Of a stretch of DNA of 64,000 nucleotides, positions 42,996 through 57,950 are shown in pieces (the stretch's first letter is position 1; every line of letters begins with the position of its first letter). The DNA comes from Nocardioides donggukensis (GTDB taxonomy: Bacteria > Actinomycetota > Actinomycetes > Propionibacteriales > Nocardioidaceae), in assembly GCF_014842875.1 (NCBI RefSeq), contig NZ_JACYXZ010000005.1, forward strand, positions 124,001 through 188,000. Reading direction: 5' to 3'. The notes under the pieces are model-generated. The model was given only the letters and a program-made list of their open reading frames with translations, had not been told where the DNA came from and did not search any database. Made by a program: the position numbers and the translations under genes.

Positions 42996-45233
42996 ATGAG
43001 CACCGCCACCCAGAGCGCCGTCCACTACGAGCGCGACGCCGACGGCATCGTCACCCTGACCCTCGACGACCCGACGTCGAGCGCCAACACCATGAACCCG
43101 CTCTACGTCTCCTCGATGGCCGACGCCGTCGAGCGGCTGTACGCCGAGCAGGACGAGGTCACCGGAGTGGTGATCGCCTCGGCGAAGAAGACCTTCTTCG
43201 CCGGCGGCGACCTCAAGGGCATGGTCGCCACCACGCCCGACGACGCGGCCGCGGTGTTCGAGATGGCCGAGGGGGTCAAGGCCGGCCTGCGCCGCCTCGA
43301 GCTCTTCCCGCGCCCGGTCGTCGCCGCCATCAACGGCGCCGCGCTCGGCGGCGGCCTCGAGATCTGCCTGGCCGCCAACCACCGGATCGTCGTCGACGAC
43401 CCGAAGGTCGAGCTCGGTCTCCCCGAGTCGACCCTCGGCCTGCTCCCGGGCGGCGGCGGCGTGACCCGCGTCGTACGCATGCTGGGCCTGCAGTCGGCCC
43501 TGATGGACGTGCTGCTCCCCGGCACCCGGTTCAAGCCCGCCCAGGCCAAGGAGAAGGGCCTGGTCGACGAGCTGGTCGACACCCGGGAGGAGCTGCTGCC
43601 GGCCGCGAAGGCCTGGCTCGCCGAGCACCGCGACGACGCCGAGGCCGCGCAGAACCCGTGGGACCGCGCCGGCTACCGGATGCCCGGTGGCACCCCCTCG
43701 ACCCCCAAGCTCGCGGCCTTCCTGCCCGCGTTCCCGGCGCTGCTGCGCCAGCAGACCAAGGGCGCCGTCTACCCGGCACCCCGGGCGATCCTGTCCGCGG
43801 CCGTCGAGGGGGCGCAGACCGACTTCGAGACCGCGTCGCGGATCGAGTCGCGCTACCTGACCCAGCTGATCGTCAACCAGCAGTCGAAGAACATGATCCA
43901 GGCGTTCTTCTTCGACCTGCAGGCCATCAACTCCGGGTCGCTGCGCCCCGACGGCGTGCCGGCGTACCAGGCCCGGAAGGTCGGGGTCCTCGGCGCCGGC
44001 ATGATGGGCGCCGGCATCGCCTACTCCTGCGCCCGGGCCGGCATGGACGTCGTGCTCAAGGACGTCGAGCAGGCCAGTGCCGAGAGGGGCAAGGCCTACA
44101 GCGCCAAGCTGCTCGACAAGGCCATCTCCCGCGGCCGGTCCACCGAGGAGAAGAAGGCCGAGCTGCTCGGCCGGATCACGCCGACCGCGGACCCCGCCGA
44201 CCTGACCGGCTGCGACCTCGTGATCGAGGCGGTCTTCGAGGACCCCTCGCTCAAGGCCAAGGTCTTCGCCGAGGTCGCGGAGTTCGTGAACGACGACGCG
44301 CTGCTGTGCTCGAACACCTCCACGCTGCCGATCACCGAGCTGGCCGAGGGCGTCGACCGTCCGGCGGACTTCATCGGGCTGCACTTCTTCTCGCCGGTGG
44401 ACAAGATGCCGCTGGTCGAGATCATCCGCGGCAAGGAGACCTCGGACGAGGCGCTCGCCAAGGCCTACGACGTCGTGCAGCAGATCCGGAAGACCCCGAT
44501 CGTGGTCAACGACAGCCGCGGCTTCTACACCTCGCGGGTCATCGGCACGATGGTCAACGAGGGGCTGACCATGCTCGGCGAGGGCGTGCACCCGGTCTCG
44601 CTGGAGCGGGCCGCCACCCAGGACGGCTACCCGGTCGGCACCCTGCAGCTCTCGGACGAGCTGAACATGGAGCTGATGAAGAAGATCCGCACGGCCACCG
44701 CCGAGGCCGCGGCGCGCGACGGCGTCGAGCTGCCCGAGGACCCCTCCGGCGACGTCATCGACACGATGATCGGGCTCGGCCGCTCCGGTCGGCTCAAGGG
44801 CGCCGGCTTCTACGAGTACGACGACTCCGGCAAGCGGCTGGGCCTGTGGCCGGGACTGGCCGAGACGTTCCCGGTGGCCGAGCAGCAGGTCCCGTTCCAG
44901 GACGTGAAGGACCGGCTGCTGTTCATCGAGGCGCTGGAGACCGCGAAGTGCTTCGAGGAGAACGTCATCACCTCGGCCGCGGCGGCCAACATCGGCTCGG
45001 TGATGGGGATCGGCTTCCCGCCCAACACCGGTGGCGCGGCGCAGTTCATGACCGGCTACGTGCCGGCCGAGTCGCCCGCCGGCCCCGGGGAGTCCGCCGA
45101 CTCGGAGCCGACCGTCGGGCTGGTGGCCTTCTGCGCCCGGGCCGACGAGCTGGCCGACGCCTACGGAGAGCGGTTCCGCCCCACCGCATACCTGCGCGCC
45201 ATGGCCGAGAAGGGCGAGTCCTTCCCCGCCTGA
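42996..45233 (+). CDS. fadB: FadB/FadJ-type enoyl-CoA hydratase / 3-hydroxyacyl-CoA dehydrogenase
   Basis: Multifunctional beta-oxidation protein of 745 residues. The N-terminal crotonase domain (residues 10-200) has INGAALGGGLEICLAANH and GLPESTLGLLPGGGG, the Glu-containing active site. A linker leads to the NAD-binding 3-hydroxyacyl-CoA dehydrogenase domain (VGVLGAGMMGAGIAYSCARA near residue 327, LHFFSPVDKMPLVEII near 462). The C-terminal helical domain has NDSRGFYTSRVIGTMVNEG. Together with the thiolase it forms a trifunctional complex. It lacks the extra N-terminal isomerase features that can be judged only by alignment. A repeat element lies just upstream. Confidence 0.92.
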   Translation: MSTATQSAVHYERDADGIVTLTLDDPTSSANTMNPLYVSSMADAVERLYAEQDEVTGVVIASAKKTFFAGGDLKGMVATTPDDAAAVFEMAEGVKAGLRRLELFPRPVVAAINGAALGGGLEICLAANHRIVVDDPKVELGLPESTLGLLPGGGGVTRVVRMLGLQSALMDVLLPGTRFKPAQAKEKGLVDELVDTREELLPAAKAWLAEHRDDAEAAQNPWDRAGYRMPGGTPSTPKLAAFLPAFPALLRQQTKGAVYPAPRAILSAAVEGAQTDFETASRIESRYLTQLIVNQQSKNMIQAFFFDLQAINSGSLRPDGVPAYQARKVGVLGAGMMGAGIAYSCARAGMDVVLKDVEQASAERGKAYSAKLLDKAISRGRSTEEKKAELLGRITPTADPADLTGCDLVIEAVFEDPSLKAKVFAEVAEFVNDDALLCSNTSTLPITELAEGVDRPADFIGLHFFSPVDKMPLVEIIRGKETSDEALAKAYDVVQQIRKTPIVVNDSRGFYTSRVIGTMVNEGLTMLGEGVHPVSLERAATQDGYPVGTLQLSDELNMELMKKIRTATAEAAARDGVELPEDPSGDVIDTMIGLGRSGRLKGAGFYEYDDSGKRLGLWPGLAETFPVAEQQVPFQDVKDRLLFIEALETAKCFEENVITSAAAANIGSVMGIGFPPNTGGAAQFMTGYVPAESPAGPGESADSEPTVGLVAFCARADELADAYGERFRPTAYLRAMAEKGESFPA

Positions 45234-47745: not shown

Positions 47746-47824
47746 GGGCGCGACCGGCCGGGCTCGGGCGCGACCGGCCGGGCTCGGGCGCGACCGGACG
47801 GGCTCGGGAGCTCCGGCCGGGCTC
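47746..47824 (+). repeat. 20-base tandem repeat (three units plus a degenerate fourth)
   Basis: GGGCGCGACCGGCCGGGCTC is repeated at 47746, 47766 and 47786 (one mismatch), with a degenerate fourth unit at 47806. It fills the convergent gap between the permease and lipoprotein genes and just reaches the lipoprotein stop. Confidence 0.75.
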
Positions 47825-48404
47825 AGGAGTGCCGGTCGGCGCAGGTCGCCTGTGCCTGCCCGAGCCGGCGGACCGACTCCGACCCGGCGTCCCCGGCCAG
47901 CCCGTCGACCGCCGCCGACCGCAACTCCTCGTCGTCGAGCGCGTCCCGGAGGCAGTCCCGGAAGCCGGCCTCGTCGAGCCCCCGGGTGGCCTTCGCCTGG
48001 GCCCGCCCGACCACGGAGACGAAGTCCACGCACCCGAACCAGGCGTCCACCCAGCTCCCGGCCGGCCCGCGGTCCAGCGACGGCATCTGCGCCGCGGCGG
48101 ACCCGGCCCCGTCCAGCAGTCCGGCCTCCCGCAGCTCCTCGTCGCCGAGGTCGGCCGAGAGGGCGGCCCCGAAGCAGTCCGCGGCCCCGGCCGACTCGGG
48201 GCTGAGCCGGGCGAACAGCGCTGAGAGCTCCGCGGCGACGTCGGCCGAGCCGGTGGTCGTCGTCGCCGTGCCGGTGGAGGCGGCCTCCCGGTCGTCGGCG
48301 GCACCGGGGGTGCCGGTGCCCGAGCAGGCCGCGGTCAGGCCCAGCAGGAGCAGCAGCATCAGCGCGCGCAGCCTGGCCGGAGGGGTGGATCGGGGCACGG
48401 GCAC
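47823..48404 (-). CDS. putative lipoprotein of unknown function
   Basis: Protein of 193 residues that I do not recognise. A basic N-terminus and a Leu-rich helix lead to the lipobox LTAAC (Cys27), followed by a Thr/Gly/Ala-rich linker. The mature domain is helical and acidic with four Cys (DCFG, GCVD, DCLRD, ATCAD), perhaps two disulfides outside the membrane. Two related segments (LGDEELREAGLLDG near residue 88 and LDDEELRSAAVDGLAG near 155) suggest an internal repeat. The neighbouring ABC exporter is convergent, so shared function is not implied. Confidence 0.7.
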   Translation of the reverse strand: MPVPRSTPPARLRALMLLLLLGLTAACSGTGTPGAADDREAASTGTATTTTGSADVAAELSALFARLSPESAGAADCFGAALSADLGDEELREAGLLDGAGSAAAQMPSLDRGPAGSWVDAWFGCVDFVSVVGRAQAKATRGLDEAGFRDCLRDALDDEELRSAAVDGLAGDAGSESVRRLGQAQATCADRHS

Positions 48405-48519: not shown

Positions 48520-49767
48520 ATGGACTTCTCTCCCACCCCCCGGGCCGCCGCGCTGACCAGCCGGGTCGCGGACTTCATGCGCGAGCACGTCACCCCGATC
48601 GAGGGCGACTACCACCGCGACCTCGCCGAGCAGCGGCGCACCGGCGATCCGTGGACCCCGCTCCCGGTCCTCGACGAGCTCCGGGCCAAGGCCCGCGAGC
48701 AGGGCCTGTGGAACCTGTTCCTGCCCCGCGAGCACGCCGGGGAGTACGCCGCCCGCTTCGGCACCGACGGCGGCGAGGGGCTGACCAACGTCGACTACGC
48801 GCCGATCGCCGAGCTCACCGGCCGGTCCGCGATCGCGCCGTACGTCTTCAACTGCAACGCCCCCGACACCGGCAACATGGAGGTGCTGCTGAAGTACGGC
48901 AGCGCCGAGCAGCGCGAGCAGTGGCTCGAGCCGCTCCTCGACGGCCGGATCCGCAGCGCCTTCGGGATGACCGAGCCGGGCGTCGCCTCCTCCGACGCCA
49001 CCAACATGGAGGCGACCGCGATCGTCGACGGCGACGAGGTGGTCGTCAACGGTCGCAAGTGGTGGACCACCGGCATCGGCAACCCCGACTGCAAGGTGAT
49101 CATCTTCATGGGGCTCTCGGACCCGGACGCCGACCGGCACCACCGGCACACGATGCTGCTCGTGCCCACGGACGCGCCGGGCGTGAAGGTGGAGCGGATG
49201 CTGTCCACGATGGGGATCCAGGACGAGCCGTTCGGGCACGGCGAGGTCTCCTTCACCGACGTCCGGGTGCCGATCGGGAACGTCATCTCCGGCCCCGGCG
49301 AGGCGTTCGCGATCGCGCAGGGCCGGCTCGGCCCCGGCCGGATCCACCACTGCATGCGGCTGATCGGGCTCGCCGAGCACGCACTCGAGGCGGCCTGCGC
49401 GCGTGGCCTGGCCCGGACCGCGTTCGGGAAGCCGATCGCCGACCTCGGCGGCAACCGGGAGCGGATCGCCGACGCCCGGATCGCCATCGACTCCACGCGA
49501 CTGCTGGTGCTGCACGCGGCGTGGAAGCTCGACCAGGGCGGTCCGCGCAACGCACTCTCCGAGGTCAGCCAGATCAAGGTCGCGGCGCCCAACATGGCCC
49601 AGCAGGTCATCGACATGGCGATGCAGATGCACGGCGGCGCCGGACTCTCCGACGACTTCGACCTCGCGGCCGCCTGGACCAACGCCCGCACCCTCCGGCT
49701 GGCGGACGGGCCGGACGAGGTGCACCGCGGGCTGATCGCCCGGCTCGAGCTCGGCAAGCACCAGTGA
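48520..49767 (+). CDS. acyl-CoA dehydrogenase (ACAD10/11-like)
   Basis: FAD enzyme of 415 residues. The ACAD core is visible: FGMTEPGVASSDATNMEAT near residue 148 (flavin/substrate loop), VNGRKWWTTGIGNPDCKV, HGEVSFTDVRVP and the C-terminal MQMHGGAGLSDDFDLA. The subgroup with NMEVLLKYGSAEQ and WWTTG resembles the dehydrogenase half of ACAD10/ACAD11. It is first in a tight operon with an SDR, an APH-family kinase and a phosphatase. In ACAD11-type chemistry this protein would act on a phosphorylated 4-hydroxyacyl-CoA; that role is inferred from context. Confidence 0.88.
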   Translation: MDFSPTPRAAALTSRVADFMREHVTPIEGDYHRDLAEQRRTGDPWTPLPVLDELRAKAREQGLWNLFLPREHAGEYAARFGTDGGEGLTNVDYAPIAELTGRSAIAPYVFNCNAPDTGNMEVLLKYGSAEQREQWLEPLLDGRIRSAFGMTEPGVASSDATNMEATAIVDGDEVVVNGRKWWTTGIGNPDCKVIIFMGLSDPDADRHHRHTMLLVPTDAPGVKVERMLSTMGIQDEPFGHGEVSFTDVRVPIGNVISGPGEAFAIAQGRLGPGRIHHCMRLIGLAEHALEAACARGLARTAFGKPIADLGGNRERIADARIAIDSTRLLVLHAAWKLDQGGPRNALSEVSQIKVAAPNMAQQVIDMAMQMHGGAGLSDDFDLAAAWTNARTLRLADGPDEVHRGLIARLELGKHQ

Positions 49768-50570
49768 GCGGCCCGTCCGAACCCTCCGGCCCGCCCGGCC
49801 CGCCGTCCGACCTGTCGTCCGGTCGCCGGGTGCTGGTCACCGGGGCCGCCTCCGGCCTCGGGGCGGCCCTGGTCCGCGCGTTCGAGGCGGCCGGGGACCG
49901 GGTGCTGGCCACCGACCTGGGCGGCACCGGCTTCGACCTCGACATCACCTCCGACGCCGACTGGGCGCGCGCGGTCGAGCACGTCGAGGCCGAGTGGGGC
50001 GGTCTGGACATCCTGGTCAACAACGCCGGCGTGGCCGGCGGCGGCCGGCTGCACCTGGCCACCCTCGAGGAGTGGCAGTGGATCTTCGAGATCAACCTCT
50101 TCGGCGCGGTCCGCGGCACCCGCGCGTTCGTCCCGATGCTGCGCGAGCAGGGGTCCGGTCACATCGTCAACGTCGCCTCGCTCGCGGGACTCGTGCACCC
50201 GGCCGGGATGGCCTCCTACAACGCGGTCAAGGCGGCGGTGGTGGCGCTCAGCGAGACCACCGGCCACGAGCTGGCCGGTCACGGGGTGCGCTGCTCGGTG
50301 GTCTGCCCGTCGTACTTCCGGACCAACCTCATGGACTCCCTCCAGGGCGCCGACACCGCCCTCGGCACGGTGATCTCCGGCCTGGTGGAGAGCTCGCCGT
50401 TCACCGCCGAGGACATCGCCGCCGAGGTGCTCGCCGGGATCGCACGGCAACAGGAAGTGATCATTCCGGACGAAGCCGCCCGCCGGGCGGTCGACCTCAA
50501 GCAGAATGACCGCGCGGGGTACGACGCGGTCATGCGACAGCAGGCAGCCAGGTTGGACAGGATGGACTGA
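49764..50570 (+). CDS. short-chain dehydrogenase/reductase
   Basis: Classical SDR of 268 residues after a 20-residue Pro/Gly/Ser leader. The cofactor motif is VLVTGAASGLGAALVRAF, followed by LVNNAGVAGGG near residue 90. The catalytic Ser is in IVNVASLAG and the Tyr/Lys in ASYNAVKAAV near 152-156. The acidic residue in LATDLGG after strand 2 favours NAD(H). The GTG start overlaps the acyl-CoA dehydrogenase stop by four bases. In this operon it could oxidise or reduce the hydroxy/keto group of the acyl-CoA intermediate. Confidence 0.88.
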   Translation: MSGPSEPSGPPGPPSDLSSGRRVLVTGAASGLGAALVRAFEAAGDRVLATDLGGTGFDLDITSDADWARAVEHVEAEWGGLDILVNNAGVAGGGRLHLATLEEWQWIFEINLFGAVRGTRAFVPMLREQGSGHIVNVASLAGLVHPAGMASYNAVKAAVVALSETTGHELAGHGVRCSVVCPSYFRTNLMDSLQGADTALGTVISGLVESSPFTAEDIAAEVLAGIARQQEVIIPDEAARRAVDLKQNDRAGYDAVMRQQAARLDRMD

Positions 50571-51680
50571 GTGGTGTCGAAGGGCTCGACCGATCACCCG
50601 GGCGCGGGCGACGAGGGGAACCCGTCGCGGGACGTGCGCGACGAGGACGGCTTCGACGTTGCCGCGGTGTCCGCATGGCTGCGCGCGCACGCCGAGGCCG
50701 ACTTCGCCGACACGGTGGCCGCCGACCCGGAGGTCCGGCAGTTCCCCGGGGGCGCCTCGAACCTCACCTACCTGCTGCGCTACCCCGACCGGGACCTGAT
50801 CCTGCGCCGCCCGCCCGGCGGTCGCAAGGCGAAGGGCGCCCACGACATGGGTCGCGAGTTCCGGATCCAGTCGGCGCTGGCGCCGGTCTTCGCGCTGGTG
50901 CCGCGGATGGTCGGGCACTGCGAGGACGAGTCGGTGATCGGCTCGGAGTTCTACGTGATGGAGAAGGTCGAGGGCACGATCCTGCGCCAGGACCTGCCGC
51001 CGGGGATGGACCTCTCGCCCGAGCAGGTCTCCCAGCTGTGCCGCAACGCGATCGATGTGCTGATCGACCTGCACGGCGTCGACGTCACCACGCCCGGGCT
51101 CGCCGAGCTCGGCAAGGGCAGCGGGTACGTCGCCCGCCAGGTCGGCGGCTGGTCGAGCCGGTTCCGGGCCGCGCGCACCGAGGACGTGGGCGACTTCGAG
51201 CCGGTGATGGCCTGGCTCGACGAGCACCAGCCCGACGACGTCGCGACCTGCCTGATCCACAACGACTTCCGCTTCGACAACCTGGTCCTCGACAGCGACG
51301 ACCCGCTGAGGGTCGTCGGCGTCCTCGACTGGGAGATGGCCACCCTCGGGGACCCCCTGATGGACCTCGGCGGGATGGCCGCCTACTGGATCCAGGCCGA
51401 CGACGACGAGACCTTCCACCTCTTCCGACGCCAGCCGACCACCGCCCCGGGCATGTGGACCCGCGCCGAGGTGGTCGCCTACTACGGCGAGCGCACCGGG
51501 CTCACGGTCACGCCGGAGCAGTGGCGCTTCTACGAGGTGTTCGGGCTGTTCCGGCTCGCGGTGATCGCCCAGCAGATCTACTACCGCTACTTCCACGGCC
51601 AGACCAGCAACCCGTCGTACGCCGTCTTCGGGGACGTCGCGAAGTACCTCGAGACGCGCTGCGCACGGGTGATCGGCTGA
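50571..51680 (+). CDS. APH-family phosphotransferase (ACAD10/11 kinase-domain type)
   Basis: Kinase-like protein of 369 residues. The N-lobe has FPGGASNLTYLLRY near residue 58 and LILRRPP with the ATP-binding Lys region. The catalytic loop is LIHNDFRFDNLV near 228 and the metal-binding motif is GVLDWEMATLGDPLMD near 247. This arrangement is that of the kinase domain fused to acyl-CoA dehydrogenase in ACAD10/11, and of LvaA, which phosphorylates 4-hydroxyvaleryl-CoA in Pseudomonas putida. It starts with GTG immediately after the SDR stop. An antibiotic phosphotransferase role is unlikely in this context. Confidence 0.87.
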   Translation: MVSKGSTDHPGAGDEGNPSRDVRDEDGFDVAAVSAWLRAHAEADFADTVAADPEVRQFPGGASNLTYLLRYPDRDLILRRPPGGRKAKGAHDMGREFRIQSALAPVFALVPRMVGHCEDESVIGSEFYVMEKVEGTILRQDLPPGMDLSPEQVSQLCRNAIDVLIDLHGVDVTTPGLAELGKGSGYVARQVGGWSSRFRAARTEDVGDFEPVMAWLDEHQPDDVATCLIHNDFRFDNLVLDSDDPLRVVGVLDWEMATLGDPLMDLGGMAAYWIQADDDETFHLFRRQPTTAPGMWTRAEVVAYYGERTGLTVTPEQWRFYEVFGLFRLAVIAQQIYYRYFHGQTSNPSYAVFGDVAKYLETRCARVIG

Positions 51681-52354
51681 TGGGCCAGGTCCTGCTGGTG
51701 CGGCACGGCCAGGCCTCGTGGGGCGCCGACGACTACGACCTGCTCTCGCCGCTGGGCTGGGAGCAGTCCCGGATGCTCGGCCACGCGCTGGCCGCCCGGG
51801 CGACCACCCCCGACCTGCTGGTGCAGGGCGGCATGCGCCGGCACCGGGAGACCGCCTCCGCCGTGGTGGAGAAGGCCGGGTGGGAGGCGATGGAGGTGGT
51901 CAACGACGGCGGCTGGAACGAGTTCGACCACGTCGGCATGCTCGCGGCGGCGCCGGATCCGGAGTTCGCCGGCTCCGAGCCGACGGCGGCGGAGTTCCAG
52001 GGCTGGTTCGAGGCCGCCACCGACCGCTGGACCTCCGGGGGGACCGGCTACTCCGAGTCCTACGCCGAGTTCGCGGAGCGGATCGGGGCCGCGCTGGCCC
52101 GCACCACCGAGCTGGCGGGGGCGAGCTCCACGGCGGTGGTGTTCACCTCGGGTGGCGCGATCTCCTGGGTGGCGGCGTCCCTGCTGACCGGATCGACCTC
52201 CCCCGACCCGGCGACGACGAGCCTGTGGGGTCAGCTGAACAAGGTGGTCGTGAACACCTCGATCACCAAGGTGGTCACCGGTCGCCGCGGCGCGACGCTG
52301 GTCTCGTTCAACGAGCACTCGCACCTCGAGGGTGGCGGGCTGACCTACCGCTGA
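51680..52354 (+). CDS. histidine phosphatase family protein
   Basis: Protein of 224 residues. The N-terminal phosphoglycerate-mutase-like motif VLLVRHGQASWG carries the phospho-accepting His9. The region expected to hold the second catalytic His (usually SHGG or THGG) reads VVFTSGGAISW near residue 154-164, so that His appears to be replaced by Ser. The enzyme may be altered or rely on another residue. It starts at an ATG overlapping the kinase stop by one base and ends the four-gene operon. It could remove phosphate from a product of the upstream kinase. Confidence 0.82.
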   Translation: MGQVLLVRHGQASWGADDYDLLSPLGWEQSRMLGHALAARATTPDLLVQGGMRRHRETASAVVEKAGWEAMEVVNDGGWNEFDHVGMLAAAPDPEFAGSEPTAAEFQGWFEAATDRWTSGGTGYSESYAEFAERIGAALARTTELAGASSTAVVFTSGGAISWVAASLLTGSTSPDPATTSLWGQLNKVVVNTSITKVVTGRRGATLVSFNEHSHLEGGGLTYR

Positions 52355-52412: not shown

Positions 52413-53162
52413 TCAGACCATCCGCTTGAACAGTGGCAGCGGCGCGTGCTTCATGACCACGCTCAGCGGCGCCCAGGGCAGCGCCGGCACGCAGGCGGAG
52501 GCCTTCTCCTTCTCGATGGCCGACACCATGGCGCGCACCCCCTTCTCGGTCGAGGCGAGCATCGGGCTGGCACCGCTGGAGCGGCTGTTCATCTCCGAGG
52601 CGATGTAGCCGGGGTAGAGCACGGTCACCGCGATGTCGGTGCCGTGCACCTCTGCCCGGATCCCCTCGGCGAGGTGGGCGACCCCGGCCTTGGTGGCGGC
52701 GTAGGTCGCCAGCCCCTTGGGCAGGCCGCGCATCGCCGACATCGACGAGATCATCACGAAGTGACCCGAGCCCTGCGCGCGGAAGATCTGCATCGCCGCC
52801 TCGGACTGCGCCAGCGCGGCCACGAAGTTCGTCATCGCGGTCTCCCGGTTGGCGTCGTACCGGCCGGTGCCCAGCGGCGCGCCCTTCCCGAGGCCGGCGT
52901 TGACCACGATCCGGTCGATCCTGCCGAAGTCCGCGTGGAAGGCCTCGAAGACCTCGAACACCTGGGCGTCGTCGTTGACGTCGAGCGCCCGGACCTCGAC
53001 CCGGCGGTCGGGATCCTTGCCGGTGATCTCGGCCTTCAGCTCCTCGAGCCTGTCGGTGCGACGCGCGCACAGCGCCAGGTCGTGGCCGAGGTCGGCGAAC
53101 TGTCGCGCCATCTCGGCGCCGAGCCCGGCGCTGGCTCCGGTGATCAGGATGGTCTTGGCCAT
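52413..53162 (-). CDS. short-chain dehydrogenase/reductase
   Basis: Classical SDR of 249 residues. The NAD(P) motif is ILITGASAGLGAEMARQF with ALCARRTDRLEEL after strand 2; the Arg pair there favours NADP(H). The catalytic Ser is in VMISSMSAM and the Tyr/Lys in ATYAATKAGV near residue 155-159. The C-terminus (APLPLFKRMV) is basic and hydrophobic, perhaps for membrane contact. It converges on the four-gene operon and starts at the ATG at 53162, behind a GGGAGGA sequence 8 bases upstream. The substrate is unknown. Confidence 0.87.
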   Translation of the reverse strand: MAKTILITGASAGLGAEMARQFADLGHDLALCARRTDRLEELKAEITGKDPDRRVEVRALDVNDDAQVFEVFEAFHADFGRIDRIVVNAGLGKGAPLGTGRYDANRETAMTNFVAALAQSEAAMQIFRAQGSGHFVMISSMSAMRGLPKGLATYAATKAGVAHLAEGIRAEVHGTDIAVTVLYPGYIASEMNSRSSGASPMLASTEKGVRAMVSAIEKEKASACVPALPWAPLSVVMKHAPLPLFKRMV

Positions 53163-53221
53163 GGGTCCATCCTCCCTCAGCCAGGTGAGGGGACCGGCGT
53201 GTGGTCCGTCCCGGGCGGGTC

Positions 53222-53275
53222 AGGCTCTACGTTCTGCAGGTTTCTCAGGCCCAGAACCTGCAGAACGTAGAGCCT
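53222..53275. repeat. 54-base hairpin repeat, copy 1
   Basis: Two perfect 21-base arms (AGGCTCTACGTTCTGCAGGTT and its complement) enclose a 12-base loop. An almost identical copy lies at 54479-54532, so the two bracket the nuclease-like gene. Confidence 0.85.
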
Positions 53276-53355
53276 CGCGTTCACCTGCGGGCAGCGGGCC
53301 GGTCCCCGGGCGGGCGCCTGTGGATGACCACCTCGGGGAGGGCTCGGGTTGGGAG

Positions 53356-54444
53356 ATGCTCCCTGGCATGGCTGGGCATCCGTGGGATCCGGTGGCTCCG
53401 CGACCGCGGGGACTGGTCCGGCCGGTGCGGGTCGATCCCACCGGTGTCGCCGGGCCGACCCGGGGGAGGGCGGCCGGGCCGCGCTGGCGGCGTACCTCTC
53501 CGGGGTTCTTCGTGCCCGCCGAGGTCGACGCCTCCCTGCCCGAGCAGCGGGTGCTGGAGGCCTCGGTGCGGCTGCCGCCGGGTGCGGCGGTGACCGGCTG
53601 GGCCGCGTGCCGGTTGGCCGGGGCCGGTCTCGTCGACGGAGTGGCGCCGGACCGCCGGACGCCGTTGCCGGTGCCGCTCGCCCTCGGGGCGTGCGGCCGG
53701 ATCCGCCCGGACGAGCGGGTGCTGCTGCTCTACGATCCGCTGCCGGCCGGGGAGACCTGGGTCCGGTGCGGCGTCCCCGCCACGCGGCCGGTGCGGGCGA
53801 CGTTCGACGCGATGCGGCTGGCGCCGGACGAGCGGGAGGCCGCGGTGGCGCTGGACATGATGGCGGCGGCGCGGCTGGTCTCGATCGCCCGGGTGGCCGG
53901 CCACCTGCCCACGCGCGGTCGGGTGACCGGGATCGGTCGGGTGCGCCGCGGCCTGGAGCTCGCCGTCGAGGGCAGCCGTTCGCCCGGCGAGACCCGGCTC
54001 CGGCTGGTCTGGGTGCTGGACGCCGACCTGCCCGCGCCGCACGTGAACTGCCCGGTGCACGCCCGCGGCGGCCGGGACGACGGTCGGCTGCTCGGCATCG
54101 CCGACCTGCTCGACGAGGAGGCCGGGCTGGTCGTGGAGTACGACGGCGCCGACCATCGCGGTGCCCGTCGGCACTCGCGGGACGTCGAGCGGGAGGCACT
54201 CCTGCGCCGGCACGGGCTCGAGGTCACCCGGGTGACCGGCCCGGACCTGGCCGACGCCTCCGCCGTGGTCGACCGGCTGCTCGACGCCCGGCGGCGGTCC
54301 CGGTTCGCCGCTCCGGGGCAGCGGGCGTGGGAGGCCCGGCCGGTCGGTCCGTGGCTGGACCAGCACCTCGCGGAGCAGGAGGCTCTCGCCGAGCTGCACG
54401 CCGAGGCGATGGCGATGCCGGTCGTCGACCCGCCGCGGGGGTGA
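53356..54444 (+). CDS. nuclease-like protein (DUF559/Vsr-type C-terminal domain)
   Basis: Protein of about 362 residues. The C-terminal part (about residues 250-320) has LLGIADLLDEEAGLVVEYDG followed by ADHRGARRHSRDVEREALLR and HGLEVTRVTGPDL. This is the pattern of PD-(D/E)XK nuclease-fold proteins of the DUF559/very-short-patch-repair type: a Asp, then Glu-x-Asp, then a basic helix. The N-terminal two thirds (VLEASVRLPPGAAVTGWAAC) resembles the AbiEi-like region often found with it in actinobacteria. No methylase or toxin partner is adjacent. The start is uncertain (ATG 53356 or 53368). It lies between two hairpin repeats. Confidence 0.65.
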   Translation: MLPGMAGHPWDPVAPRPRGLVRPVRVDPTGVAGPTRGRAAGPRWRRTSPGFFVPAEVDASLPEQRVLEASVRLPPGAAVTGWAACRLAGAGLVDGVAPDRRTPLPVPLALGACGRIRPDERVLLLYDPLPAGETWVRCGVPATRPVRATFDAMRLAPDEREAAVALDMMAAARLVSIARVAGHLPTRGRVTGIGRVRRGLELAVEGSRSPGETRLRLVWVLDADLPAPHVNCPVHARGGRDDGRLLGIADLLDEEAGLVVEYDGADHRGARRHSRDVEREALLRRHGLEVTRVTGPDLADASAVVDRLLDARRRSRFAAPGQRAWEARPVGPWLDQHLAEQEALAELHAEAMAMPVVDPPRG

Positions 54445-54478
54445 GGGGGGGTGCTGGTGGCCGGGTCCCTGGTGGCTC

Positions 54479-54532
54479 AGGCTCTACGTTCTGCAGGTTT
54501 CTCGGGCGCAGAACCTGCAGAACGTAGAGCCT
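54479..54532. repeat. 54-base hairpin repeat, copy 2
   Basis: The same 21-base arms as at 53222 are conserved exactly; only two loop positions differ (52 of 54 identical). It lies after the nuclease-like gene and before the TetR promoter. Confidence 0.85.
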
Positions 54533-54572
54533 CGCGCGCGGGCGGGGGCGACGACCCGTCTCACCCACATAA

Positions 54573-55231: not shown

Positions 55232-56031
55232 GCAACGACGTGCTGGAAGCCGTCCTCGCCGACCTGGCCGCCGAGGGGGACCTGCTGGAGCGCCTCGTCG
55301 CGCCGCTCGGCGAGACCGGCTGGCGGACGCCGACCCCCGCGGCCGGCTGGGACGTCGCCACCCAGGTCGCCCACCTTGCCTGGACCGACGAGGCCGCGGT
55401 GGCGGCCGCGGTCGCCGCGGGCGGCGACAAGGAGGCCTGGGACGCCCTCGTCCTGCGGGCGATGGCAGACCCGGACGGGTTCGTCGACACGGTCGCGCTC
55501 GAGGGTGGCCGGGTGTCGGCCGAGGAGCTGCTGGCCCGGTGGCGAGCGGCGCGTACGGCGCTGGCGCGGGCCCTGCGCGAGGTCCCGCAGGGCGAGCGGA
55601 TGCCGTGGTTCGGGCCGCCGATGTCGCCGACGTCGATGGCCACCGCCCGGTTCATGGAGACCTGGGCGCACTCCCTGGACGTGCACGAGGCGCTCGGCGC
55701 CGAGCCGGAGGTCTCCGACCGGGTCCGGCACGTCGCGCACATCGGCGTCCGCACCCGGGGCTTCGCCTACTCCGTGCACGGGCTGACCCCGCCGGACGAG
55801 GAGCCCCGCGTCGAGCTCGACGCACCGTCCGGCGAGACGTGGGCCTGGGGGCCGGAGGACGCGGCGCAGCGGGTGACCGGCCCGGCGTACGACTTCTGCC
55901 TGCTGGTCACCCAGCGCCGGCACCGCGACGACGTCGCGCTGGTCGCCGAGGGCGAGGATGCCGAGACCTGGTTGGGGATCGCGCAGGCCTTCGCCGGGCC
56001 GCCGGGTGGCGGACGGGAGCCGCGGGGATGA
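55228..56031 (+). CDS. TIGR03084-type DinB/mycothiol maleylpyruvate isomerase-fold protein
   Basis: Protein of 267 residues. The N-terminal DinB-like four-helix bundle has metal-binding His candidates in VATQVAHLAWTDE near residue 46 and in FMETWAHSLDVHEAL near 150. WFGPPMSPTSMATARFME is typical of the TIGR03084 group found in actinobacterial acyl-CoA gene clusters. A small C-terminal domain follows. Some relatives are mycothiol-dependent isomerases, but the reaction of this subgroup is unknown. The GTG overlaps the TetR stop, and the ATGA at its end overlaps the AtuA-like gene. Confidence 0.8.
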   Translation: MSNDVLEAVLADLAAEGDLLERLVAPLGETGWRTPTPAAGWDVATQVAHLAWTDEAAVAAAVAAGGDKEAWDALVLRAMADPDGFVDTVALEGGRVSAEELLARWRAARTALARALREVPQGERMPWFGPPMSPTSMATARFMETWAHSLDVHEALGAEPEVSDRVRHVAHIGVRTRGFAYSVHGLTPPDEEPRVELDAPSGETWAWGPEDAAQRVTGPAYDFCLLVTQRRHRDDVALVAEGEDAETWLGIAQAFAGPPGGGREPRG

Positions 56032-57950
56032 GCGGGGAGGGTCTCGAGACGCTCGCTGGCGCTCGCTCCTCGACCAGCGGGGAGGCTGGCGCTCGCTCCT
56101 CGACCACCGGGGACGCTGGCGCTCGCTCCTCGACCACCGGGGACGCTGGCGCTCGCTCCTCGACCTCCGGGGAGGGTGGCGCTCGCTCCTCGACCACCGG
56201 GGAGGCTGGCGCTCGCTCCTCGACCACCGGCGTGGTGCGGATCGGGAACTGCTCGGGCTTCTACGGCGACCGGCTCTCGGCGATGCGGGAGATGCTGGAG
56301 GGCGGCGAGCTGGACTACCTCACCGGCGACTACCTGGCCGAGCTGACGATGCTGATCCTCGGCAAGGACACGATGCGGGACCCGACGCTGGGGTACGCCC
56401 GCACCTTCGTCGGCCAACTCGAGGACTGCCTCGGCCTCGCCCTGGAGCGCCGGGTTCGGATCGTCAGCAACGCCGGCGGCCTCAACCCCGCCGGGCTGGC
56501 CGACAAGCTCCGCGAGGTCGCCAACGGGCTCGGCCTCGACCCGGCGATCGCGCACGTCGAGGGCGACGACCTCAGGCCGCGCGCGGAGGAACTGGGCTTG
56601 AGCGGGGCGCTGACCGCCAACGCCTACCTCGGCGGCTTCGGCATCGCCCGGGCGCTCGACGCCGGCGCCGACGTCGTGGTCACCGGCCGGGTCACCGACG
56701 CCAGCGTCGTGGTCGGCCCGGCGATCGCGCACCACGGCTGGTCCGAGACGTCGTACGACGAGCTGGCCGGCGCCGTCGTCGCCGGGCACGTGATCGAGTG
56801 CGGCACCCAGGCGACCGGTGGCAACTTCTCCGGCTTCCGCACGCTGCCGCGGACCGGTGAGCCGCTCGGCTTCCCGCTGGCCGAGGTGGCCGTCGACGGC
56901 TCGTGCGTGATCACCAAGCACGACGGCACCGGTGGCGCGGTCACCGTCGACACCGTGACCGCGCAGCTGGTCTACGAGATCCAGTCCACGCGCTACGTCG
57001 GCCCCGACGTCACCACCCGGCTCGACACGATCACCCTCGAGCAGGCCGGCGCCGACCGGGTCGCGATCAGCGGCGCCCGCGGCGAGGCGCCGCCGGAGCG
57101 GCTGAAGGTGTGCGTCAACGAGCTGGGCGGCCACCGCAACACCGTGGAGTTCGTGCTCACCGGGCTCGACGTCGAGGCCAAGGGCGTGTGGGTGCGCGAG
57201 CAGATGACCGCCGCGCTAGCGGGCCGCGAGCCGGCGGAGGTCGTGTGGTCGAGCACCTCCCACCCGCACCCGGACGCCGAGACCGAGGAGGCCGCCTCCT
57301 GCCTGCTGCGGTGCACGGTCAAGGACCCGGCCCCCGAGCCGGTCGGCAAGCCGTTCACGGCGGCGGCCGTCGAGCTGGCCCTCGGCTCCTACCCCGGCTT
57401 CACGATGACCGCGCCGCCCGGCCCGGCCACGCCGTACGGCGTCTACCGTCCGGCGTACGTCGACCGGTCCGAGGTCGCCCACACCGTCGTGCATGCGGAC
57501 GGTCGTCGCGAGGTCGTCCCGGACCCGGTCGCGCTGGCCGCCGGGCCGGACGAGTCGGACGGCCTGCGCCCCTCGCCGTACTCCGCGCCGCGGGACAGCC
57601 TGACCCGGCGGATGCCGCTCGGCACGTTCGTCCACGCGCGCTCCGGCGACAAGGGCGGCGACGCCAACCTGGGATTGTGGGTGGCCCACGACGGGTCGCC
57701 GAAGTACGACGAGCGGGTCACCTGGCTGACCAAGCTGATGAACCCCAAGAAGGTGCGCGAGCTGGTGCCCGAGGCGGCGGACCTCGAGATCGACGTCTAC
57801 TGCCTGCCGAACCTCGGCGGCGTCAACGTGCTCATCCACGGGCTACTCGGCGACGGTGTCGCCGCCTCCACCCGCTTCGACCCGCAGGCCAAGGGGCTCG
57901 GCGAGTGGGTGCGGTCGCGGCTGGTGCAGATCGAGGAGGGGCTGCTGTGA
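56028..57950 (+). CDS. atuA: AtuA-like (DUF1446) protein with N-terminal repeat insert
   Basis: Protein of 640 residues. Residues 5-69 are not native-looking: they are six 10-residue copies of AGARSSTTGD encoded by a palindromic-repeat-derived tandem array. The conserved domain starts at VVRIGNCSGFYGDRLSAM near residue 70, with RIVSNAGGLNPAGLADKL, VVTGRVTDASVVVGPAIAHH and GHVIECGTQATGGNFSGF. The C-terminal region has HARSGDKGGDANLGLWV. AtuA is required for acyclic terpene (citronellol/geraniol) catabolism in Pseudomonas, though its reaction is not settled. The neighbouring carboxylase and dehydrogenases fit such a pathway. The true N-terminus before the insertion was probably very short. Confidence 0.82.
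   Translation: MSGEGLETLAGARSSTSGEAGARSSTTGDAGARSSTTGDAGARSSTSGEGGARSSTTGEAGARSSTTGVVRIGNCSGFYGDRLSAMREMLEGGELDYLTGDYLAELTMLILGKDTMRDPTLGYARTFVGQLEDCLGLALERRVRIVSNAGGLNPAGLADKLREVANGLGLDPAIAHVEGDDLRPRAEELGLSGALTANAYLGGFGIARALDAGADVVVTGRVTDASVVVGPAIAHHGWSETSYDELAGAVVAGHVIECGTQATGGNFSGFRTLPRTGEPLGFPLAEVAVDGSCVITKHDGTGGAVTVDTVTAQLVYEIQSTRYVGPDVTTRLDTITLEQAGADRVAISGARGEAPPERLKVCVNELGGHRNTVEFVLTGLDVEAKGVWVREQMTAALAGREPAEVVWSSTSHPHPDAETEEAASCLLRCTVKDPAPEPVGKPFTAAAVELALGSYPGFTMTAPPGPATPYGVYRPAYVDRSEVAHTVVHADGRREVVPDPVALAAGPDESDGLRPSPYSAPRDSLTRRMPLGTFVHARSGDKGGDANLGLWVAHDGSPKYDERVTWLTKLMNPKKVRELVPEAADLEIDVYCLPNLGGVNVLIHGLLGDGVAASTRFDPQAKGLGEWVRSRLVQIEEGLL
56040..56234 (+). repeat. palindromic repeat with six-fold 30-base expansion inside the AtuA-like gene
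   Basis: GGTCTCGAGACGCTC (56040-56054) is one end of the element. It is followed by six 30-base units starting GCTGGCGCTCGCTCCTCGAC at 56055, 56085, 56115, 56145, 56175 and 56205. The 195 bases are 65 codons and keep the frame. Confidence 0.9.

Follow-up and report, generated by a model that had tools for sequence, protein, structure and literature searches.

A conserved four-gene operon of Nocardioides donggukensis probably encodes a split ACAD10/11-type route for 4-hydroxyacyl-CoAs

Organization of the locus

The window, i.e., the whole 64,000-nucleotide stretch of Nocardioides donggukensis DNA that was analyzed, carries on its forward strand, at positions 48520–52354, a run of four genes in the order acyl-CoA dehydrogenase (ACAD), SDR, kinase, and histidine phosphatase (HP) (Table 1). 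The initial annotation had described four genes of these kinds with overlaps of 4, 0, and 1 bases. The open reading frames and the junction sequences agree with this (..caGTGAgc.. between the ACAD and SDR genes, ..TGA directly followed by GTG.. between the SDR and kinase genes, and ..cTGATGg.. between the kinase and HP genes), and the four identities were recovered with Pfam. The neighboring reading frames at 47823–48404 and 52413–53162 are both located on the opposite strand, so the four genes form an isolated, compact unit, within which there is no room for a fifth gene. Genes for an acyl-CoA ligase, a lactonase, or a dedicated regulator do not adjoin the operon. Models of defense systems gave no match, and none of the four proteins reached the cut-off of any NCBIfam model (for the SDR, among the best 25 matches listed). 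An enoyl-CoA hydratase/3-hydroxyacyl-CoA dehydrogenase is encoded elsewhere in the window (42996–45233).

Table 1. Coordinates of genes and functional sites of the operon in the window
Feature	Position	Strand	Description
Acyl-CoA dehydrogenase (ACAD)	48520..49767	+	415 aa; predicted ACAD10/11-LvaC type; Pfam Acyl-CoA_dh N/M/1
ACAD helix GRLGPGRIHHCMR	49321..49359	+	R269, H277, and R280, aligned with phosphate-binding R626, H634, and R637 of ACAD11
ACAD predicted catalytic base D396 (LADGPDEVH)	49705..49707	+	Aligned with D753 of ACAD11; Glu in common ACADs
SDR	49764..50570	+	268 aa; GTG start; Pfam adh_short 1e-45
APH-fold kinase, probable 4-hydroxyacyl-CoA kinase	50571..51680	+	369 aa; GTG start; Pfam APH 6e-51
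Kinase catalytic loop HNDFRFDN, residues 230–237	51258..51281	+	D232 and N237, aligned with D220 and N225 of ACAD11 (8V3V)
Histidine phosphatase (HP) superfamily protein	51680..52354	+	224 aa; Pfam His_Phos_1 (PF00300) 2e-16
HP RHG motif, residues 8–10, nucleophile H9	51701..51709	+	Arg and His invariant in 131/131 alignable HPs
HP S157 (VFTSGG)	52148..52150	+	Second catalytic His elsewhere in the superfamily

Several other elements were observed downstream of the operon. Two copies of a 72-base palindrome-like element, 93% identical, occupy positions 53208–53279 and 54465–54536 of the window; they are 1257 bases apart and enclose a reading frame at about 53349–54444. A cluster of AtuA-like and ACAD genes, as judged by eye, lies downstream of the operon within the window. 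A 30-base tandem repeat (56024–56260), translated into repeats of the GARSSTTGE type, is located at the start of an apparent AtuA-like (DUF1446) reading frame.

Active-site residues of the acyl-CoA dehydrogenase

Among proteins with solved structures, the window ACAD was closest to 4HR3 (67% identity, 593 bits) and to mouse ACAD11 (8V3U; 49% identity over 411 residues, 400 bits), versus at most 145 bits for ordinary ACADs. In ACAD11, the 4-phosphate is held by R626, H634, and R637, and the catalytic base is D753 (PMC12440821); non-conservative substitutions in this triad of ACAD10/11 abolished phosphate elimination (PMC12440821). The ACAD11 residues were transferred through the 8V3U alignment, in which the chain numbering is that of the paper minus one. 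ACAD11 R86 was excluded from the residue test, as in the numbering used it does not fall on the arginine beside the alpha-C glutamate. Residue mapping showed that R269, H277, R280, and D396 of the window ACAD are invariant among 87 ACADs of related clusters. As a control, seven further ACADs encoded in the genome were compared, and this set was missing from them. Of the 11 ACAD-like places in the genome, only the window ACAD scored as the ACAD10/11-LvaC type. Its membership in this subgroup is thus well supported by sequence comparison.

The kinase and the preceding SDR

The window kinase is 38% identical to 9O56, 36% identical to 3DXP, and 32% identical to the kinase domain of ACAD11 (8V3V). 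PDB entry 3DXP is titled "putative acyl-CoA dehydrogenase," but by sequence it is an APH-like kinase. The HNDFRFDN and LDWEMA motifs noted in the initial annotation were both located, the latter at residues 252–257. D232 and N237 of the former are invariant in 107 kinases, and the CoA-contacting R176 of ACAD11 aligns with R189 of the window kinase. No other strong match of this kind was found in the genome.

A phylogeny of 212 related kinases placed the window kinase in a clade of 148 members with a support of 0.996, which included 9O56 and was separate from the clade of ACAD11 and 3DXP; the two did not group as one clade. By this phylogeny, the window kinase clade is a sister of the ACAD11/3DXP kinases rather than their direct counterpart, although the protein probably works like the ACAD10/11 kinases despite its position outside their clade. 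The initial proposal of a split bacterial counterpart of ACAD10/11 is therefore upheld in part: the ACAD qualifies by its defining residues and the kinase is related, but the latter belongs to the sister clade.

Since the clades are distinct, the substrate could differ in chain or in hydroxyl position. The operon might act, through the same phosphorylation and elimination chemistry, on another hydroxyacyl-CoA, such as a branched or terpenoid intermediate or a 5-hydroxy acid. No substrate test for the window kinase clade was found in the literature, several genomes hold kinases of both clades, which suggests different substrates, and the AtuA-like/ACAD cluster noted by eye downstream would fit such a role. 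Against this, in modeling of ACAD11 the triad holds a phosphate that sits on C4 (PMC12440821), and the similar gene cluster of Pseudomonas citronellolis is situated in a levulinate-responsive region (PMC6692424). We consider another substrate unlikely, if still worth bearing in mind.

The SDR contains the TGAASGLG and NNAG motifs and the Ser-Tyr-Lys set. LvaD of Pseudomonas putida is described as reducing levulinyl-CoA to 4-hydroxyvaleryl-CoA (PMC6692424). The window SDR probably plays the role of LvaD as a 4-oxo/4-hydroxyacyl-CoA oxidoreductase, as suggested by its position. An SDR gene was found upstream of the kinase gene in 58/75 loci and is missing or replaced in some relatives.

Altered catalytic site of the histidine phosphatase

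The AF2 model of the HP (pLDDT 93.7) has a normal histidine phosphatase fold. Its best structural matches were RosC, PhoE, and PGAM5 with Z of about 21, and Z ranged from 18 to 21.6 for PhoE, RosC, and CobC. None of the solved structures was close in sequence, the best profile E-value being about 1e-9. The catalytic core of histidine phosphatases includes a second histidine. In the window HP this position is occupied by S157, which aligned with the histidine of PspA (4IJ5), 9MMH, and CobC (6E4B) and is placed in the model at the end of a strand ahead of a helix. Serine was found here in all 133 alignable HPs, whether or not they adjoin a kinase gene. The second arginine (132/132) and the glutamate (133/133) are likewise conserved. 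Judged by the model and the alignment, the protein has the fold and the RHG motif of branch 1 but not the second catalytic histidine. Within the literature searched, no histidine phosphatase with serine in place of this residue was found. A long open frame in one genome seemed to join the HP to another protein; this fusion was rejected, as the additional frame looks like non-coding read-through.

Distribution of the gene set and linkage of the phosphatase to the kinase

Eighty loci, mostly of Nocardioidaceae, were collected by similarity of the kinase. The ACAD gene was located upstream of the kinase gene in 72 of 75 judgeable loci, the HP gene directly followed the kinase gene in 64 of 76, and ACAD, SDR, and HP were all present in 54. 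The order ACAD-SDR-kinase-HP was also found in annotated plasmid records of Ideonella, Pseudoalteromonas, Rhodobacteraceae, and Streptomyces, and a variant, ACAD-kinase-HP-SDR, in Azospirillum. Clusters of Deinococcus, one of which is present in D. radiodurans, contain ACAD-SDR-kinase-HP together with genes for a MaoC dehydratase and a small hypothetical protein; some species also add a PaaI thioesterase, an SMP-30/gluconolactonase-like protein, or an acyl-CoA ligase. The ACAD-(SDR)-kinase-HP arrangement thus spans three phyla, Actinomycetota, Pseudomonadota (alpha-, beta-, and gammaproteobacteria), and Deinococcota.

Such recurrence of the same order in many genera of three phyla is beyond chance. 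The initial annotation had proposed examining neighborhood conservation, with a gene order unique to this genome speaking against its reading; since the order is found elsewhere, this objection falls. The same data bear on a more skeptical view, in which the four genes would be a loose neighborhood of common lipid-metabolism families with a superficial likeness to ACAD10/11. ACADs, SDRs, and APH kinases are indeed plentiful in actinobacteria, but the gene overlaps, the order kept over three phyla, and the ACAD11-specific residues refute this view in the main and leave it highly improbable.

The link between HP and kinase was assessed with a profile of the HP subfamily built from 27 members and run on evenly drawn genomes. 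In Pseudomonadota (n = 299), HP was found in 47 genomes, of which 45 contained a relative of the kinase versus 87/299 overall. All 22 genomes with a window-clade kinase (above 350 bits) encoded HP, in 17 cases within 1 kb. Among Gammaproteobacteria (n = 185), HP was present in 14 genomes, all with a kinase relative. The link was weaker in Actinomycetes (n = 198), where only 13 of the 26 genomes with a window-clade kinase encoded HP (10 adjacent), and 21 genomes contained HP without such a kinase. HP is therefore no strict requirement and could also serve other partners. Numerous actinobacterial HPs of the serine type were observed away from a window-type kinase. Hypergeometric values for the HP-kinase link were 1e-20 and 1e-26 in Pseudomonadota and 3e-5 in Actinomycetes; they ignore shared ancestry and serve as a guide only, and recurrence across three phyla carries more weight.

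The initial annotation had regarded a histidine phosphatase in this setting as an unusual addition. This does not hold, since HP is the usual neighbor of the window kinase clade and one has been reported next to the LvaA homologue of P. citronellolis (PMC6692424). The lack of the second catalytic histidine had gone unnoticed in that annotation.

DUF6285 (PF19802) was considered as the missing LvaB, a component of the P. putida lva operon, and rejected: the APH-like kinase adjacent to it was an outgroup in the kinase tree and the ACADs nearby are generic, so it belongs to a separate module and is silent on LvaB. This stand-in was absent from the window genome and 19 relatives. Mutual exclusion of HP and DUF6285 was likewise dismissed, both being present in three genomes versus 3.9 expected. 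In Pseudomonadota, DUF6285 genes beside an APH-like kinase gene, often with a generic ACAD nearby, look like a separate, uncharacterized kinase/ACAD module.

Proposed pathway and role of the phosphatase

The most likely function of the operon is the conversion of 4-hydroxyacyl-CoA to 2-enoyl-CoA. We estimate a probability of about 0.78 that it represents a split bacterial form of the ACAD10/11 (Lva) route, readying 4-hydroxyacyl-CoAs for beta-oxidation. The SDR would interconvert 4-oxoacyl-CoA and 4-hydroxyacyl-CoA. The kinase, judging from its family, would phosphorylate the 4-hydroxyl at the expense of ATP, yielding 4-phosphoacyl-CoA. The ACAD could then take a proton and a hydride at C2–C3 and, as the phosphate leaves C4, give the electrons back to form 2-enoyl-CoA. 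Its conserved residues suggest that this step would proceed with no net oxidation and with redox-neutral use of FAD, which has been argued for ACAD10/11 on experimental grounds (PMC11342911, PMC12440821). The 2-enoyl-CoA would finally enter general beta-oxidation, where the enoyl-CoA hydratase/3-hydroxyacyl-CoA dehydrogenase encoded in the window could act on it.

The place of HP in this scheme is less clear-cut. It could be an ordinary active phosphatase in the main flux, stripping the phosphate from 4-phosphoacyl-CoA, as put forward by the authors of the P. citronellolis study (PMC6692424). Its nucleophilic histidine, arginine, and acid glutamate are retained in all alignable members, and its gene directly follows that of the kinase. 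However, plain hydrolysis would merely reverse the kinase step, the neighboring ACAD retains all residues needed for its own phosphate elimination, the whole subfamily has serine for the second catalytic histidine, and many relatives possess the kinase and the ACAD without HP. A main-flux phosphatase is therefore improbable.

A guarding role appears more plausible, in which HP limits or repairs phosphorylated intermediates, although we would put it at somewhat less than an even chance. HP might slowly dephosphorylate 4-phosphoacyl-CoA or a stray 4-phospho acid; it might equally, being without the second catalytic histidine, bind the intermediate and hold the kinase back. The latter would strikingly resemble the degenerate HAD domain of ACAD10, given that HP too has a phosphatase fold with an incomplete catalytic set and is encoded right after the kinase. 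More tentatively still, the serine-type subfamily as a whole could be a dedicated partner of the bacterial 4-hydroxyacyl-CoA kinase, acting as a sensor or brake or as a slow proofreading phosphatase, and thus an independent counterpart, of unrelated fold, of the HAD domain of ACAD10.

Comparison with known systems

The operon is genuine and conserved, belongs to a known type of pathway, and is not categorically new. A text search of the literature by product names gave a single match, PMC6692424, which lists a kinase, HP, ACAD, and SDR together, so the gene set was already known; as far as searched, earlier work described neither how widely it occurs nor the kinase clade nor the loss of the second histidine. 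The 4-hydroxyacyl-CoA route was reported in P. putida (2017) and in mammals (2024–2025), and active-site residues now place it in actinobacteria, other proteobacteria, and Deinococcus. What was a one-off, unexplained phosphatase gene of Pseudomonas becomes a general, testable question: why the kinase is partnered by a catalytically incomplete protein of phosphatase fold both in bacteria and, with a different fold, in ACAD10.

The closest system is the levulinate cluster PCLA_07f0390-0396 of P. citronellolis LA18T, found by RNA-seq on levulinic acid (PMC6692424). According to the paper, it combines, like the window, a phosphotransferase, HP, LvaC-type ACAD, and LvaD-type SDR; lvaB was not found, and the authors state that the phosphatase needs functional analysis. 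The genes there run kinase-HP-ACAD-SDR, and ligase and transport genes lie alongside, whereas the window operon is arranged as ACAD-SDR-kinase-HP without a ligase or transporter. The lvaABCDE operon of P. putida KT2440 (Rand et al. 2017, as cited in PMC6692424, PMC11342911, and PMC12440821) resembles the window, by the descriptions in these papers, in having separate kinase and ACAD genes and an SDR, for 4-hydroxyvaleryl-CoA. The P. putida operon needs the 12 kDa LvaB, and, unlike in the window, HP is not mentioned in those descriptions.

Mammalian ACAD10 and ACAD11 share with the window the ACAD active-site residues, an APH-type kinase, and the same presumed chemistry, but their kinase and ACAD domains are fused, while the window has separate genes and a kinase of the sister clade. 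In the HAD domain of ACAD10, the DxD motif is incomplete and phosphatase activity is negligible, but the domain still restrains the kinase; its mutation led to more 4-phosphoacyl-CoA (PMC11342911). The phosphatase-like part of the window operon belongs instead to the histidine phosphatases, an unrelated fold. With PhoE, RosC, CobC, and PGAM5 of branch 1, the window HP has in common the fold, the RHG nucleophile, the arginine, and the glutamate, but where these proteins carry the second catalytic histidine, its subfamily has serine.
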